DNA from: Clonostachys chloroleuca
Lineage: Eukaryota > Ascomycota > Sordariomycetes > Hypocreales > Bionectriaceae
Direction: 5' to 3'
DNA: 64,000 nt
Assembly: GCA_037952775.1 (NCBI GenBank)
Contig: JBANAY010000003.1
Span: 22,196,001 to 22,260,000, forward strand
In this document: positions 4,523 through 58,300 of the stretch, piece after piece
How the letters are laid out: every line of letters starts with the position of its first letter
How positions within the stretch are numbered: position 1 is the stretch's first letter
The notes under the pieces: model-generated
Databases searched by the model: none
Seen by the model: the letters and a program-made list of their open reading frames with translations, nothing else
Told to the model about the DNA's origin: nothing
Program-made: the position numbers and the translations under genes

Positions 4523-5594
4523 CTAACAAGCTGTTCGAAGCCCTGCATTCCAGTAGTACCCCAACCTATTGCGCTTAGTCCAAGACAACTGAGAGCGATC
4601 GGTTGTCAGTATGGATCGTTGTTTCCCTTTTGACTTTGGACGCCGCCCATATTCATGCACGAACCAGGGAGATAGCTGGTTCGATGTCCTGTTTGATCTT
4701 CGTTGAACAAGGACTAGTAGTGAATCCGTGCGGGGAGATGATGAATAAATTCAACGCTGGAGGCTCCAAGTGTGCCATATTTTATGGCAGTCCGTGCCTT
4801 TTTCGTGAATAGCTCTCACCTGAATTTGACTAGTGAAAGGATAAATAATCTTGAGGAAGTATTGGCAGCCATGATTTGGACATTTGAGAAGTTATTAAAT
4901 ACGTCATGCAGCTTATCGATAAATCGATAAGCTGAATATTGCGTCAATACTTAGACGAACCTTCCTTTGGTTTGAACAGATAGCTTTTTTCTCCTCAGAC
5001 ATCATTCAATTGCTTCAATCAATCGCTTGCTTTTACCATAATACGGTCGTATCCGCTTGTCAACCCACTCTGATATCGAGGTCAAGATAGCAAGAGCCAA
5101 GGGTGGCCTTCCAGGTCGTCTCCTTTCCTTCACGCTCGACAAGCGACGAAAACAAGAACAGACCTAGATCCCACAACGTTTTGTTACTGTTCCTTTCCTC
5201 CTCTCTCTCTCTTCTTCTCTCCATAGCTCCATTATCATCAACATTCAGCCAGTATGGCCACCAAGCCCATGAGCTCCTAACTCATGTATCTTACCCACAA
5301 TCTAGCAGCTAATTCAGGTTACAGAAAAGCACAAACCAGTACCTACGTTAGGCACCGCAGGCCCAGCGACAAGAGACTTCTTGGCTCTCAAGCTAAACCG
5401 ACCCCAACGTCAGCAAGATTGTACATTGTCCTGACGATCCATGATCAAGCAACTGCCGTATCATATACTAAGGACGACATCATCATCGAGGACTCACCCA
5501 TGGTAAGCCCCTCCTAGACGAGCTGGTTTCGATCATAAACTAATCTACTCAATGTCTTTATTTAGCCCCAAACCTTCCTCCCATCGCCGTCGCC
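4523..5594. other. Upstream region of the microexon gene
   Basis: Holds a 26-bp palindrome at 4909-4934 and a CT-rich tract at about 5190-5223 of the kind seen before fungal transcription starts. Two coding-like pieces lie here: 5306-5420, after a TCTAG acceptor and ending at a GTACAT donor, and 5473-5502 (frame KDDIIIEDSPM), ending at GTAAGC. The exon-like piece 5566-5597 lies between a TTTAG and a GTATGT. Their frames do not join cleanly, so they are left out of the CDS call below. Confidence 0.4.
4909..4934. repeat. Perfect 12-bp inverted repeat (2-bp spacer)
   Basis: CAGCTTATCGAT, AA, then ATCGATAAGCTG: the arms are exact reverse complements. It is isolated in AT-rich DNA with no flanking target duplication or element visible. 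It could be a dimeric protein-binding site or a hairpin. Confidence 0.85.
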
Positions 5595-6286
5595 ATGGTA
5601 TGTTTCCAAAAAACGATCGTTCGGGGTATCGTGAATACTTGAGTTAACACGGTGACGAGCCCAATACCACCGTCGCGCCCCCGTCTCCCCCGCCCTCCCA
5701 AGCTGCCATCTCCTCCAAGGATTCTGCTGTGCGTTTCCAAATTTGATATCATTTTGAGTGAGACAAGCAAGAATAGGCTAACAATGAAGTAGTGGTGGCT
5801 GCTTTAGGCGCGAGTGAGTTCAGTTTGATAAAATGGGAAATAAGAATTAATGGTTAAAAAATCCGATAGAATACGCGGAGGCAGGTTGCTGTAAGTAAAT
5901 GTGGTTGTAAATTTCCGGAAACTGCGCTACTTAAAAATCTATGATAGGCCACAAGGACAAGATTGACGGTAAGTCCAACAATTGTCGTAATTTTGGTGGG
6001 CTTTCAATACTAACGAAGTGATAGAATGCGAGATCCGTTGTGCGGGTAAGAAACCTGTGAAGCTAAATTGTACAAGTTGTAATGTTAATAGAGAGGCTTT
6101 GACAGAGAAAACAGATACAAATCCGGGTAAAGAATATTCTTTTCTAGCCGTGCTGTTGGTTGATATATGATGCTAAAACGAACACCCACAATAGCAGATG
6201 GAGCTCGAGTTGGTTGTAAGTTTAAATTATTCTGACTGCTCTATTTCAGAGGCCAAAACTGACACCGCGAACCTATAGTGACTTGA
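5595..6286 (+). CDS. Small cysteine-containing protein encoded by 21-nt microexons
   Basis: Unrecognised protein of about 77 aa. Exons are 5595-5597 (ATG), 5660-5728, 5777-5813, 5870-5890, 5948-5968, 6025-6045, 6094-6126, 6195-6215 and 6279-6286 (stop). Four exons are exactly 21 nt, each phase 1 on both sides, so each adds one seven-residue cassette: KYAEAGC, CHKDKID, ECEIRCA, ADGARVG. Introns are 48-68 nt; most have canonical donors such as GTAAGT and TAG acceptors. The N-terminal part is Pro/Ser-rich (TVAPPSPPPS). Weak points: the 5659 acceptor is GAG; the 6093 acceptor is the second AG of TAGAG (the first AG gives a stop after three codons); and the true start may lie further upstream, since 5566-5594 also reads in frame (PNLPPIAVA). 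No signal peptide or known domain is seen. The seven-residue cassettes suggest a helical rod. The splice pattern is seen in the sequence; that it is expressed is inferred. Confidence 0.6.
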
Positions 6287-6961
6287 GCAATATGCCCAGG
6301 CTTGTACAGTCTCCTAATTCATATAATTAATCAAACTAATAATGGGGCTAAATAAAGGACGCCGAGCAGGAGGCTGAAGTAGATCTTTCAGCCTTGATAG
6401 ACACATCAAGATGTTCACTTGCTAAATACATGAACATCAGCAAGTGTGTGTCAGAATAATGGGGTCTGTAAAGCTGTTTTCAATCCAAGTTCCCAATATA
6501 GGCCACAATATTGATAGACAGTAGTTAGTAACAACAATAATAATAAATTATTAGGCAATTGGGGATTATTATGTGCTTACTATTGCACAATAGGAGGTAT
6601 TGTAATATGAGTTCCGGTCACAATGATTCTGTCAAGGTGACTTTTGCAGTCCTTGCTTTTCTGATAGCCACTTGATCAGCTAAAACCCGCTGACACCGCC
6701 GACGCTTCAGGGGACAATGTAAGTTTATCTTTGTGTTATTTCATATACCAGTCTAGAATTTATTAACCTAACATATCGTGTAGGTTGAATAAGCGTTTTC
6801 TTTTTCTTTTTCTGTTGTTCTCAAGCAAGTAATTGCGTTGGGCTGTTGCGTTGGTTTTGTACTTATTGTTTTTGGTTTGTTTTTTTGAAATGATAATTCC
6901 ATGTTCCGTTGAAAACTCGCAGTCTTGCACACTTATGAAAACTTTGCCATTTTGTAGAAGA
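6287..6961 (+). other. Extra exon-like segments after the microexon gene
   Basis: After an AAAG site, 6358-6459 is open for 34 codons to TAA in one frame (starts DAEQEAEV, contains CSLAKYMNISKC). After a GATAG, 6668-6718 reads PLDQLKPADTADASGDN and ends at a GTAAGT donor; a TGTAG at 6781-6783 then gives VE and TAA. The composition resembles the microexon gene's C-terminus. They may be alternative 3' exons or a decayed second copy; neither joins in frame to the main model. Confidence 0.35.
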
Positions 6962-9722: not shown

Positions 9723-12193
9723 ATGAGTCCTTCCAGACACACATTTACGGCTGCGTCTACCATCCGCGGTGGCTCCCAGCAAGACCTTGAATCTCTGGCC
9801 AACACATTGCTAGATTCATCAATTAGCCAAACAAGGAATGATTCTAAGCCACCTTCAGAGAGCTCGGGATTGCGGCGCGATGCTATAGCTTCTAGTACCG
9901 GGCGCGCAAAACGAGATTCCCGTCGACCGGTGACAGTCGTCGCCATTCGCATACGCAGAAGGAGGATCCCAGTCGAGCGTCTGCTTCTTCAAGTACAACA
10001 TCAAAAACACGTGAAAGACTCCGAGAAGTGGAACTAGAGCGGGACAAGCTCCTTCGTGATGTCGCATATGGAAAAGGTGTCGTAGAGCGACTCAAAAAGG
10101 AGGGCGCTGCCACAGAGCTCGCAGCGTCTCGTACCAAGGCCCGTGTCGAGAAATTGAAAACGGAAACCCATAGGGAGGGGTCGAAAGTATCAAGAAGTGC
10201 TACGGATGGATTCTTCAAGAAGGCTTCGTCGACCGACCTGCTCTTTCTCATGGACACAACGTCCTCTATGGATCCTTACATGAACGAGGCCAAGGAACAG
10301 GTCAGAAGCATCATCAGCGAGATCAGGGAGGCCTTTTTTGGTGAAGCTGAGGTGCGAATCTCCATCGTCAGCTACAAGGACCACGGGGATGAGCCGAGCA
10401 TTCAGTGGTTAGATTTTACTCCCGACGCCGATGCGGCGCGTGCATTCCTTGAGAATCTGTATGCAGAGGGCGGAGGAGATCCTCCAGAAGACGTTCTTGG
10501 TGGTATCCAGCAGGCTATCAACGCGAGCTGGAGAGCCTACACGCGCTGCATGATACACATTGCTGATGCACCACCGCATGGGCGGATATTCCACGATTGT
10601 GATGATGATACGTACCCTGAGCCAGGAAGCGAGCCTCATCAGCTCACATATAAGCCATTGATTCAGAAATTGACAGAGCTGCGTATAAACTATGCCTTAC
10701 TTCGCACAGGAGAATACACTGATAAGATGGCGGATCTCTTCATGCAGGAATATAGGCCTGCCGCAACCGTGTGCCGGCTACACACGTCAAATGGCTACTA
10801 CCCGCTGTCCATGGTCAAAGGAACATCGAATGCTGGATCTCCCGGTAAAAAAGGGATCCAGTTTCAAGAATTGGAGTTGGGCACTACTTACAGTGCTCTC
10901 CGACACCTCATTGTCCAGAGTGTGACTAGTTCGGCCTCTCTCACTGCCACATACTTGGCAAGCCGAAGGACCCCTGTGGCTAGAGCCACTTTCAAACTAC
11001 GAGCTCCACGTTTAACAATGGTGGAAGAGGAATTTGAAGGATCGGATGAAATCAAGATATCACTGGAAACCTCACCACCCCAATGGGATACTTTGAGCTG
11101 GTTTGGCGAGAAGGTCAACGTTGAGGGCTTCTCCCCGACTGTAGTAGTCCATGGATTCCAGACGCTCAACGACATGATGCTCTCCGATGATAATATCATC
11201 ATGGGTCCTGTGGAACTCTCACTTCGGTGGCGGTCCAAGCCATTTTCAAATGGAGCAACTCGCCAGGCATCTTATGCTCGCACCGAAGCTTCCACTGACC
11301 GGTTTGTAGTCAAATCGCCGTTGAAGAGCTCCACAAAGATGGTCCATCTCGTCGAAGACATGCGATGTCAAGCGCTCTGCCGAGCGTTCGCCCTAGAGTT
11401 CAATGGCCTCGTGGGATACGGGTTCAGCCTGAATTTCATTGTGACAATATGCTTCGAGGGTAAAGAGAAAGTGAGGAGCGATGCTGACTGTCTGTCTCTT
11501 GAGCCATTTATTCCGGGCCACTATATCAAGTACAATGGCAATAACGGATGGCTACCCGAGGGGCTGGAAGGTAACGACATCTTCAAGGCTTCCCAGGCTT
11601 TCTCTCATTTCACATATGAGCGCTCACATGGGGAATTTCTGGTATGTGACCTGCAGGGTGTGAACAACTTGCTTACCGACCCGGCGATTCATACACATAA
11701 TGTGGAGAGATTCAAGCTGTCGGCCACGAACTGCAATATAGCGGGAATCAAATTCTTCTTTGGCAGTCACAGATGTAACGAGATTTTTTCTAGTTTGGGA
11801 CTGCAAAGTTCTGCATATGGATTGAAGATGGGCTACCAGAGTTTCCGTACCAACTGGCCCTCCGTGGAGAATACCCTCCTTTGTTCTAACAAGCTCTGTG
11901 GCCGGATTGTGTACGCATCACATGCCAAGCAGTCCGTCGAATATCCAGACTGCAGCTGGTGTGACCAATGCTGGTCTCAGTTAGAGGCATCCAAAATATC
12001 GAGGCTTTGCGTTGGTCCTGGATCCGACCACGAGTTTGAGGTCTCAAAGTTCTTCTTCGAGTCACAGGGGAGTAGGTTACCGCGAGTGTGTCCACTGCAC
12101 CGCACTAAGGAGAACGACCTATCTGAGGCGGCCTCCACCTCCCGGAAAGGGCTCTGGGCAAGGTTAAAGTCAAGAGCCAAGAGGATAACTTAG
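9723..12193 (+). CDS. vWA domain / alpha-kinase fusion protein (N-terminal frame break)
   Basis: Predicted atypical protein kinase resembling the VwkA architecture (von Willebrand A plus alpha-kinase). The main frame is open from about 9890 to TAG 12193, but its only early start candidate (10028) is GTG. An ATG frame at 9723 (MSPSRHTFTAAST...) looks coding and would join the main frame if one base were restored between about 9890 and 9930, for example in the AAAA at 9908-9911; the whole would be about 823 aa. A short coiled coil (ERLREVELERDK) precedes the vWA domain, whose MIDAS-like motif DTTSS lies near codon 77 of the 10028 frame. The alpha-kinase part shows RQASYAR, FVVKSP, PFIPGHYIKYN, the catalytic-region block HFTYERSHGEFLVCDLQGV and FGSHRCNEI. 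Cys pairs (CSNKLC, CSWCDQC) near the C-terminus may bind zinc. Family identification is firm; substrate is unknown. Confidence 0.8.
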
Positions 12194-55240: not shown

Positions 55241-56598
55241 TTAGGCTACTGGGGGTTTGAAGTGCCGTTTAAGCGGAACCCATGATTCAGAATTGTACTG
55301 CCGCTGAACCTTTCGACACTCTTCCGTTGCCCACTCGGTCACTCCAATCATGAGCGGGCTCTCAAACATGAACGCCATGCTGCCCTCTCCTACCTTGAAA
55401 GGTCTTAGCTCTGCATTGATTGCCTTCTCATGAGTATCTGCATCTGGACCGTGTGCGCTCATCACATTATGCAAACTCGCTCCGGCCGGTTTGAAACCCC
55501 CGCCAGCCTTTGCGTCATAGTCGCCCATGATAAGCCCCATGAACTCAGACATGGTGTTGCGGTGGTACCAGGGAGGGCGGAACGTATCCTCCTGCACAAG
55601 CCACCGAGGAGGGAAGATGACGAAATCGGCTGTTGGATTTGAGAGGACGGTGTATATGCTAGGGTCTGGGTGATCAAAGCTCGTGCTTCCGATGACGTTG
55701 AAGCGACCCAGATCATACTTGTATGGATAATACACCCCATGCCACCCGACCACATCGAATGGTGTATGGGTTTGCTCTGCAGAGAATATCTGGTTATCGT
55801 ATTTCGTGAAGATGGTCCATGTCCCTGGCTCCTCGATGTCCTCAAAAGCGGCAACGGGAGCTTGGAAGTCACGCGCATTGGCGAGGCCGTTGGATCCGAT
55901 AGGCCCTAGCTCTGGTAACTTGAAGTGACCGTCGTAAAGTTCGAGGATGTAGCCGCGAATTTTCCCGGAGGGAAGTCCCACTCGGAACTTAATACCTCGA
56001 GGGATGACAACAATCTCATTAGGACGAACCAGAATGTGACCCAGCTCGGTTTGAATATCCATGTCTCCAAGTTGCGGAACGATCAACAGGTCACCATCGG
56101 ATGAATAGAAGGCCTGTTGTGGAGACATAGAAGCTCCGGCAGCATATATGTATATTCCAAGCCCAGTTTTGGTTGCCGGGCTCCCAACACCTCCAACTTG
56201 CTTTAAGCCATGAAGCCAGTCTGCCTTCTCATCAAGGTCAAATGGATCCCATCTGAATTGTGTAGGAACTTGGCTTATTGGAGTCGTGATGTTAAAATCG
56301 TCCCGCTTCTGAAATGGGAGATGAGCCGCAGAGGGGAGAATACGGTAGAGCCAGCTTTGGAGATTCTCATGTCGTGGCGCGATAAATGAAGTTCCAGATA
56401 GCTTTTCGGCATAGAGACCGTGGTTCGGCTTCTGAGGCGAGTTTGCTCCAATCGGTAGTGTATCAGGAACTGCTTCTGATCTATCTACCATTCAGTACAT
56501 TGACATGAGGTGGAAAGCTATCAGACATACTCATGATAAGATTGAAAGCCGTTGAGATATTTGTACTTGTCGGCTGTTGGGAAGTTTGAGATAGGCAT
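55241..56598 (-). CDS. hmgA: Homogentisate 1,2-dioxygenase
   Basis: Fe(II) enzyme opening the homogentisate ring to maleylacetoacetate in Phe/Tyr and phenylacetate catabolism; cytosolic. 435 aa, exons 56598-56531 and 56480-55241. The first exon ([18 protein letters not shown]) was found by splicing; the acceptor is the second AG of GGTAGATAG and gives [20 protein letters not shown], the family's lead. Metal ligands are seen in [12 protein letters not shown] (His and Glu) and SAHGPD (His). [12 protein letters not shown] and [19 protein letters not shown] are family blocks. Divergent to fumarylacetoacetase, sharing a 409-bp intergenic region. Confidence 0.95.
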
Positions 56599-57007
56599 AT
56601 TGTTCAAATGAGTTGCAGAAGGTATTCAGTCTAGCCTGCTTTCGGTCAAATGCCAACTTGATACTCAGTGACAAAAGACAGATAACGGATTGCTATCTTC
56701 AATCCCGGCTACCCTATTATATTGGAACTTTCGGCTATTAGAAACTTCTACCATGTCAACTGACTGCCTCTAGATCGGGTTCTTTGAGCTTTGACTGGCT
56801 GAACCGGATTCCATCGTCTAACTTGGTACTCCGGTGGGAAAATTGGCGCTGGTTGGAGCGGATAAATCGTTCATTGGCGAGACTCCACGCTTGTGATACC
56901 ACATGCGGCAATATACAAGAACAGCAAAGTATGTTGACCATGAATTTGAGAAAGAAAGGCACATGTTGTTTCGGAAACTGCATTCGCATCCTGAACATCG
57001 TACCATC
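56599..57007. promoter_or_regulatory. Bidirectional promoter, homogentisate dioxygenase / fumarylacetoacetase
   Basis: 409 bp between two divergent starts of consecutive pathway genes, so shared control is likely. No binding site could be named with confidence. Confidence 0.6.
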
Positions 57008-58300
57008 ATGGCTCCTAAATCCTGGCTCCCGATCGCCGGCTCATCCCATTTCTCCCTAGCCAACATCCCGTTCGGCATCATTTCCACCAAGGCGCTACCT
57101 GATCCTCGCCCGGCATCCATCATCGGATCCAATGTGATTGATCTTCAAGCTTTTGCTGAAGGTGGCGGGTTTTCGCCCCTAGAAGCACTCAAGCCTCACA
57201 TTGGTGTTTTCTCGCAGCCTCGACTGAACGCATTCGCGGCTTTAGGGCGCCCCGTTCACTCTCAAGTGCGGTCGTACCTACAGCAGGTATTTTCTGAAGA
57301 CGGCTCTTATCCTCAGATCCTACGAGACAACAGTGACCTTAGGAGCAAGGTACTTATTCGTGCTTCAGAGGCAACCACGCATCTTCCTCTAGAGATTGGG
57401 GATTACACCGACTTCTTCGCTGGAATCAACCATGCATTCACGGTTGGCTCATTGTTCCGGGGACCTGAAAATGCTTTGCAGCCCAACTACAAGCATCTCC
57501 CAGTTGCTTATCACAGCCGAGCGTCCTCGGTCGTAGTCTCTGGTACTCCCATCCGGCGACCTTGGGGCCAAATTCTCACCGCGCCTCCAAGTGTCACGCC
57601 GCAAGCGCCGATTGTTGCCCCTTGCCGACGCCTGGATATCGAGCTCGAACTTGCTGCATTTATCTGTAAATCAAACCCAATTGGTGAGCCTGTGCCTGTT
57701 GACGAAGCCGAGCAAAGTATTTTTGGCTACGTTCTGATGAACGATTGGTCAGCCAGAGATATTCAAACCTGGGAGTACGTTCCCCTCGGGCCATTTAACG
57801 CAAAGAATTTTGCCACTTCCATCAGCCCATGGGTCGTCCTACCCGATGCACTTGAGCCATTTGCCACGTCCGGGATTGCCAATGACACGGAGTATGCTGC
57901 CTACCTCAAGGAAAGTCGGGAACTGAACCAATACGACATTCGCCTCAAGGTCGACCTGACAACTAAGAAAGGCATCACCACGACCATCACAGAGACAAGT
58001 AGCAAGAACCTAATTTGGTCATTTCCTCAAATGATCGCACATCACACATTTTCAGGGTGCCCGATGCGCCCCGGTGACCTTCTCGGAAGCGGCACAATCA
58101 GCGGCACAACAGATTCGTCTCGTGGCAGTTTGCTTGAGCAGAACGGCGGAGGAAAGAAGGTTATAACACTCAACGGGGGAGAGGAGAGGAAGTTCTTGGA
58201 GGATGGAGACACAATTACGATTTATGGAGTTTCTGGCGATGAGAGAGCTCTCGTGGGATTTGGCGAGTGTAGCGGCCAGATTATCGAGGCCCGTCGATAG
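57008..58300 (+). CDS. fahA: Fumarylacetoacetase
   Basis: Hydrolyses fumarylacetoacetate to fumarate and acetoacetate, last step of the homogentisate route. 430 aa, single exon. ATG 57008 (MAPKSWLPIAGSSHF) is chosen over the non-ATG start further upstream, as it gives the usual N-terminus. Landmarks: DYTDFFAGINHAFTVGSLF (active-site Asp and His), AYHSRASSVVVSGTPIRRP (usual YHGRAS, Gly replaced by Ser), LDIELELAAF (metal-binding Glu pair), MNDWSARDIQTWEYVPLGPF and AKNFATSISPWVV. The substitution is conservative in position and does not break the pocket. No maleylacetoacetate isomerase is seen in the window. Confidence 0.95.
   Translation: MAPKSWLPIAGSSHFSLANIPFGIISTKALPDPRPASIIGSNVIDLQAFAEGGGFSPLEALKPHIGVFSQPRLNAFAALGRPVHSQVRSYLQQVFSEDGSYPQILRDNSDLRSKVLIRASEATTHLPLEIGDYTDFFAGINHAFTVGSLFRGPENALQPNYKHLPVAYHSRASSVVVSGTPIRRPWGQILTAPPSVTPQAPIVAPCRRLDIELELAAFICKSNPIGEPVPVDEAEQSIFGYVLMNDWSARDIQTWEYVPLGPFNAKNFATSISPWVVLPDALEPFATSGIANDTEYAAYLKESRELNQYDIRLKVDLTTKKGITTTITETSSKNLIWSFPQMIAHHTFSGCPMRPGDLLGSGTISGTTDSSRGSLLEQNGGGKKVITLNGGEERKFLEDGDTITIYGVSGDERALVGFGECSGQIIEARR

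Follow-up and report, generated by a model that had tools for sequence, protein, structure and literature searches.

The micro-exon genes (MEGs) of schistosomes contain a large number of very small exons whose lengths are multiples of three, and skipping of these exons keeps the reading frame. The bicycle genes of aphids are outlined as a large family with about 17 exons on average, the internal exons being nearly all in phase 2 (PMC9168663). In Trichoderma virens, Xlr2 contains a 20-nt microexon that, according to the outline of that work, was missed by the annotated gene model and was shown by RNA-seq and conservation (PMC11121469). Introner-like elements and stwintrons, as summarized in PMC8469720 (compare PMC4457414), are many short introns, some with inverted repeats, that have been put into fungal genes. 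Among the literature found, judged by titles or by the start of abstracts, there was no report of a run of microexons in a fungus.

The locus described here lies at about 5595–6792 on the forward strand of the window, the whole 64,000-nt stretch of DNA that was analysed, and is probably a small fungal micro-exon gene, as predicted from its splice signals. With schistosome MEGs it has in common tiny frame-neutral exons, predicted in the present case; it differs in being fungal, in having been found as a single copy and in its nearly uniform exon length of 21 nt. The bicycle genes, as they are outlined, resemble it in that their internal exons are unusually small, follow one another in a run and share one phase, and in being recognizable by gene structure, whereas the present case is one locus, shorter and from another kingdom (PMC9168663). 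Phase 2, which prevails in bicycle exons, meets a stop in microexon 3 of our locus. Like the locus, Xlr2 as outlined has a microexon in a filamentous ascomycete, but there the microexon is single, not part of a run, and lies in a large gene for a transcription factor, and our locus is predicted from sequence (PMC11121469). Introner-like elements were rejected as a source of the introns, no other copies of which were found by DNA search of the genome; the inverted repeat at the locus also spans the exon array and not one intron, as compared with the elements summarized in PMC8469720.

A scan blind to reading frame scored donors, branch sites and acceptors and retained the best chain of 44–79-nt introns separated by 9–40-nt exons. 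It covered both strands of 264 kb, comprising the window and 20 stretches of 10 kb. The locus ranked first with a score of 30.8 for five introns and four exons, and the runner-up in the 264 kb reached 16.9 with two introns. This score was attained by none of 3000 dinucleotide shuffles of the locus (best 21.6) and by none of 1233 background tiles of 800 nt (best 16.9); the maximum in further loci amounting to 75 kb was 13.7. In all eight settings of intron cost and exon limit, the chosen exons were 21, 21, 21 and 21 nt long, and with a wider exon limit exons of 32 and 69 nt joined the chain upstream. The first four microexons start 77, 78 and 77 nt apart. This 77–78-nt spacing, the splice-signal chain, the repeated 21-nt length, the single copy by DNA search, the MITE-like element and the target duplication around it all rest directly on the sequence and its statistics. 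The splice weights of the scan and of the gene finder were set by hand after the general fungal consensus. Site scores were derived from 27 training introns of 48–94 nt, for which GAG acceptors were excluded and a G at donor position +5 and a CTRAY branch were required; the low score of GAG acceptors is therefore partly built in.

In the structural sense, a micro-exon gene has several consecutive exons far below normal size and canonical introns. At the level of splice signals, this is what was found, with four 21-nt exons in a chain that no shuffle matched. Divisibility of exon length by three was also found, in that microexons 1–4, 6 and 8 are 21 nt long, while for 5 and 7 the length varies with the splice site used. 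Among the predicted exons, four were called blind, two are plain and two (microexons 5 and 7) come from a choice of site, the last two being suggestive only. An exon length of 21 nt means that the predicted lengthening or skipping would keep the frame in any phase.

A preliminary description of this DNA had proposed a run of frame-neutral 21-nt exons, and this proposal is backed by the chain statistics. Microexons 2, 3, 4 and 6, the four on which it was founded, are each exactly 21 nt between AG and GT, and the geometry of the exons is confirmed, more strongly than was stated there. Microexon 1 was absent from that model, which had a 37-nt exon at 5777–5813 instead. The 33-nt exon that it obtained through the GAG acceptor at 6093 has an alternative, the CAG acceptor at 6105 yielding 21 nt there too.

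Table 1. Predicted parts of the locus and associated repeats, in order along the window.
Feature	Position	Strand	Length	Remarks
Predicted intron	5503..5565	+	63 nt	Donor GTAAGC strong, branch CTAAT; score 18.1; in best wide chain
Inverted repeat, left arm	5556..5570	+	15 nt	Perfect; CTTTATTTAGCCCCA; covers 3' splice site of first intron
Predicted 5' exon	5566..5597	+	32 nt	Ends in ATG 5595–5597, the candidate start common to the preliminary description and the favoured phase-0 model
Predicted intron	5598..5659	+		Weak GAG acceptor; score 13.2; required by both of these models
Predicted exon	5660..5728	+	69 nt	67% G+C; proline-rich in frame 0
Microexon 1	5793..5813	+	21 nt	Phase 0 WWLL*AR, phase 1 LVAALGA; best frame-blind chain
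Microexon 2	5870..5890	+	21 nt	Phase 0 NTRRQVA, phase 1 KYAEAGC; best frame-blind chain
Microexon 3	5948..5968	+	21 nt	Phase 0 ATRTRLT, phase 1 CHKDKID; best frame-blind chain
Microexon 4	6025..6045	+	21 nt	Phase 0 NARSVVR, phase 1 ECEIRCA; best frame-blind chain
Microexon 5	6106..6126	+	21 nt via CAG 6105	35 nt via TAG 6091; 33 nt via GAG 6093 (preliminary description); 31 nt via GAG 6095
Microexon 6	6195..6215	+	21 nt	Phase 0 QMELELV, phase 1 ADGARVG; intron upstream has weak donor GTAAAG
Possible microexon 7	6279..6299	+	21 nt only with GC donor	With donor GTACAG, 25 nt (to 6303); phases 0 and 1 meet a stop
Inverted repeat, right arm	6343..6357	+		Exact complement of left arm; at 3' splice site of microexon 8
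Microexon 8	6358..6378	+	21 nt	67% G+C; phase 0 DAEQEAE; weak donor GTAGAT
Predicted intron with MITE	6379..6679	+		62 nt (6379–6440) when element and one target copy are not counted
MITE-like copy	6441..6674	+		Ends CAAGTG...CACTTG; 5-bp duplication ATCAG at 6436–6440 and 6675–6679
Predicted exon	6680..6718	+	39 nt	Phase 0 LKPADTADASGDN
Last predicted intron	6719..6783	+		Strong: GTAAGT, CTAAC, GTAG; score 19.3
Terminal exon, phase 0	6784..6792	+		VE, then stop TAA

Three of the microexons offer a choice of sites. The alternative acceptor at 5807 reduces microexon 1 to GCGCGA (5808–5813). Microexon 5 is preceded, at 6085–6095 of the window, by a tandem triple acceptor TAG-AG-AG, whose AGs at 6091, 6093 and 6095 give all three downstream phases. 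Its acceptors scored 16.2 at 6091 (the best), 14.4 at 6105, and 12.7 each at 6093 and 6095, and by these tandem sites the exon could shift the frame. Microexon 7 is the weakest of the predicted set and may be skipped.

Because no 21-nt exon alters the frame, one choice of frame applies to the entire run. If the 3' end is read in phase 0, the microexons are too, unless the frame is shifted by an irregular exon. Microexon 8 and the exon at 6680–6718 are open in phase 0 only, at −5.57 bits per codon as compared with −5.83 for real genes, and phase 0 of the 3' exons runs to a stop at 6792. When the heptads were compared by position, those of phase 0 were similar to one another (p 0.0022 for all eight, 0.0012 for 2–8, 0.0065 for 2–6, 0.016 for 1–6 and 0.03 for 2–4), and permutation gave p 0.30–0.92 for phases 1 and 2. 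The best of these values, p 0.001, comes from 12 groupings and is thus of moderate value. Phase 0 also does not need the GAG acceptor at 6093. We tentatively favour, from these features, a small protein gene at about 5595–6792 whose seven-residue microexons all keep one frame, which is most likely phase 0 and not phase 1; this is the leading reading, with low confidence. What we infer in this best explanation is that the locus is spliced, that translation starts at 5595 and runs in phase 0 to the stop at 6792, and that the product has about 83–96 residues.

Phase 0 carries a TAG in microexon 1 and a TGA in microexon 7. It requires either the 6-nt exon at 5808–5813 or a 141-nt intron, together with the GAG acceptor at 5659, and it requires the weak donor GTAGAT; the 96-residue version uses GTACAG as well. 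On the best frame-blind path, phase 1 alone is open through the four 21-nt exons, phase 0 having its TAG in the first and phase 2 a TGA in the third. The codon usage of microexons 2–4 (exons 5870–6045) favours phase 1 by about 3:1 (likelihood ratio 2.9). Compared with shuffles, codon usage gave p 0.010 for the whole path of the preliminary description and p 0.046 for the phase-0 path.

These observations argue for an improved form of the phase-1 reading, which we consider unlikely, if the least unlikely of the alternatives. With the ordinary acceptors 5792 and 6105, it would encode LVAALGA-KYAEAGC-CHKDKID-ECEIRCA-EKTDTNP-ADGARVG-LT and stop at 6284–6286, the exons beyond being untranslated. 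Phase 1 is the only phase open across microexons 1–6 together, and acceptor 6105 makes the GAG at 6093 unnecessary. It reaches a stop three codons on, however, if microexon 5 uses its best-scored TAG at 6091. With acceptor 5792, the in-frame upstream ATG that was traced (5441) reads the proline-rich exon in a different frame from ATG 5595, and a start at ATG 5595 would need the weak acceptor 5776 (12.0 as compared with 19.5) or another donor. The phase-1 heptads of microexons 1–6 are dissimilar by position (p 0.51) and show no amphipathic signal, and the strong intron at 6719–6783 would fall in the 3' untranslated region.

The preliminary description had read the locus in phase 1, as the sole open phase, into a specific peptide, with suggested helical heptads, ending at 6286. 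When its path of eight introns of 48–68 nt was rebuilt, phase 1 was open for 75 codons and the other frames had three stops each, and two codons and a stop follow at 6279–6286. That phase 1 alone is open no longer holds with the ordinary TAG acceptor at 6091, by which phase 0 is open over 70 codons from exon 5870 to 6789. As first written, the peptide needs two GAG acceptors and leaves the strong last intron untranslated. In the groupings of all eight, 2–8, 2–6 and 1–6, its heptads were at chance by position (p 0.30–0.61) as compared with p 0.001–0.016 in phase 0. The helical heptad gained no support, the phase-1 hydrophobic moment at the heptad period being 0.27 against a shuffle mean of 0.42 (p 0.73). 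At a period of 3.5 residues, shuffles gave p 0.18–0.41 for three phase-0 strings, p 0.73–0.85 for two phase-1 strings and p 0.57 for one phase-2 string, values that do not discriminate among the phases. The end at 6286 was not confirmed, as exons 6358–6378, 6680–6718 and 6784–6792 and the strong intron 6719–6783 can follow, although 13 of 25 listed gene-finder parses stop there. The phase-1 peptide, the helical heptad and the 6286 end point were not established by this analysis.

The locus might also be an ordinary, constitutively spliced small gene without cassettes, in which only some exons are 21 nt and their equal length has no function. We place this reading after the phase-1 alternative and regard it as rather improbable. 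Exons of 35, 21 and 25 nt (6092–6126, 6195–6215 and 6279–6303) would then encode RGFDRENRYKSG-RWSSSW-FDLSNMPRL, followed by DAEQEAE-LKPADTADASGDN-VE. Such a gene uses the best-scored acceptor 6091 and acceptor 6278 (18.9), stays open for 70 codons to 6789 with a stop at 6790–6792, and has its middle part carried by the best parse from ATG 5595. It depends, however, on the donor GTACAG at 6304, and the common length of the four blind microexons, 6195–6215 and 6358–6378 would be a coincidence. Ranked behind it, and judged improbable, is a spliced non-coding RNA or a decaying gene copy, in which introns are still recognized and no frame is maintained. This would fit the lack of any one frame open through all eight 21-nt exons, the MITE-like insertion in the locus, the recourse to one GAG and one GC site, the absence of a Pfam family above cut-off and the failure to find a second copy in the genome. 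It fits poorly with the G+C content of exon 5660–5728 (67%), with the good codons of 6358–6378 and 6680–6718, open in one frame only, and with exon lengths divisible by three; no Rfam family was found, and a known snoRNA host is thus not indicated.

Gene-finder results swing with the settings and do not settle the frame. When the MITE-bearing intron was penalized for length, the 25 listed parses ended at 6286 (13), 6832 (seven), 6792 (four) and 6102 (one); the two best of them end at 6832, reading into the MITE. When that intron was not charged for its length, all six best parses (three frames with two exon limits) ended in DAEQEAE-LKPADTADASGDN-VE at 6792. With all ATG starts allowed, the posteriors over 12 settings were 0.004–0.277 for phase 0, 0.026–0.176 for phase 1 and 0.42–0.82 for phase 2, which was the highest class in 10 of the 12. 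The best phase-2 parses begin in an upstream open stretch at 5284–5502. With the start fixed at 5595, the phase-0 posterior was 0.87–0.93 when 5-nt exons were allowed; with a 12-nt exon minimum it was 0.26–0.49 as compared with 0.30–0.73 for phase 1. The posterior of an end at 6792 from this start was 0.24–0.73 in four settings, and the best printed parses end at 6832. These fixed-start values were taken from the rows for 5595 only; the rows listing several starts were left aside, some of those positions not being ATG.

The upstream stretch at 5284–5502 comprises 73 open codons that begin with an ATG and end at the strong donor at 5503; with the 32-nt exon included, its frame differs from that of the favoured reading. 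It is possibly an upstream open reading frame or an alternative 5' end.

The MITE-like element belongs to a family for which at least 21 more matches were found on contigs C3 and C4 of the genome, at 69–84% identity, and all 19 loci fetched align. Inverted ends of 35 nt (89%) were detected in one family copy (locus L002), and at that setting in neither the 6441–6674 copy nor locus L004. The AG of the penultimate intron lies in the 3' target copy; by holding this AG, the target duplication leaves the intron with a usable acceptor beyond the element. The intron measures 62 nt if the element and one target copy are not counted, and its neighbours are 56–68 nt. This similarity in length supports 6358–6378 and 6680–6718 as exons of one gene.

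The two 15-nt arms flanking the array are the sole exact copies found in the 59-Mb genome, and four more were found with one mismatch. They could, by their complementarity, pair in the transcript. A comparable inverted pair was found in one of 2000 shuffles and in two of 205 real tiles, a background of about 1%, and given the latter the repeat may be a chance occurrence. RNA folding of 5480–6430 was not better than in shuffles (z +1.73; the fold was equalled or bettered by 18 of 20 shuffles), and for this reason no structural claim rests on it. A transposon bounded by the arms was rejected, as there were no other exact arm copies, the region is single-copy and no target duplication was seen at the arms. 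The most doubtful of the readings considered is a strict 21-nt rule, in which eight seven-residue exons at 77–89-nt spacing, each removable in frame and two of them stop-bearing poison exons, would let splicing set both the length of a heptad protein and its on/off state, the unique inverted repeat folding the array out.

When the genome was searched at DNA level with 5200–6438 (E up to 1), the region matched itself and no second copy was found. A protein-level search of the genome gave one weak match beyond the locus (E = 5.7). A recent origin by tandem duplication of a 77-bp exon–intron unit gained no support, as the six pairs among the first four units did not align above shuffles (z −0.85 to 1.57); the exon columns are slightly above permutation, with p 0.02–0.03 in three groupings. 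Pfam gave no family above cut-off for the locus peptides, and the match of an early composite peptide to CC4_RECK (E 0.08; 13.6 bits against a cut-off of 27) was taken as chance. Among solved structures there was no convincing match (best E 1.1). In prokaryote and viral collections, which are not meant to hold fungi, 119 and 24 pattern stretches were found, none of them confirmed by tblastn. A snoRNA host was also rejected: Rfam at E up to 10 gave one unrelated match (E = 8; 16.1 bits, the gathering score being 60). Introns of 56–68 nt are very short for snoRNA hosting.

The genome, of 59.4 Mb, is assembled in four contigs, and the window sits at about 22.2 Mb on C3 (37.5 Mb), which is unusually long for a chromosome of a filamentous ascomycete. 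Elsewhere in the window, an open reading frame at 10028–12193 joins a von Willebrand A domain and an alpha-kinase domain (Pfam). A homogentisate 1,2-dioxygenase (Pfam) at 55241–58300 adjoins a 465-amino-acid open reading frame on the opposite strand, which we take to resemble a fumarylacetoacetate-hydrolase-type protein; with other oxidative genes nearby, this is possibly a tyrosine breakdown cluster. Some translations in the window are presumably HET, F-box and Zn2Cys6 proteins, as judged by eye; like the two Pfam-identified genes and the short introns, they are in keeping with a filamentous ascomycete.

In the favoured phase-0 reading, the chain of splice signals marks predicted exons exactly 21 nt in length, and including or skipping one of them would change the product by seven residues with no change of frame. 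The product would be about 83–96 residues, with a proline-rich start, basic heptads and an acidic tail, and would vary in length with the acceptor of microexon 5 and the skipping of microexon 7. Microexons 1 and 7, with their phase-0 stops, would need shortening by an alternative acceptor or skipping; because of these stops, whether the full or a truncated product is made would follow from the choice of splicing.

If true, such genes may escape gene predictors, as the microexon of Xlr2, in the outline of that work, did (PMC11121469). The locus provides a compact test case for the recognition of tiny exons and for protein variation in steps of one heptad. If an ascomycete does have a run of 21-nt exons, a short-intron splicing system can define seven-codon exons in series.
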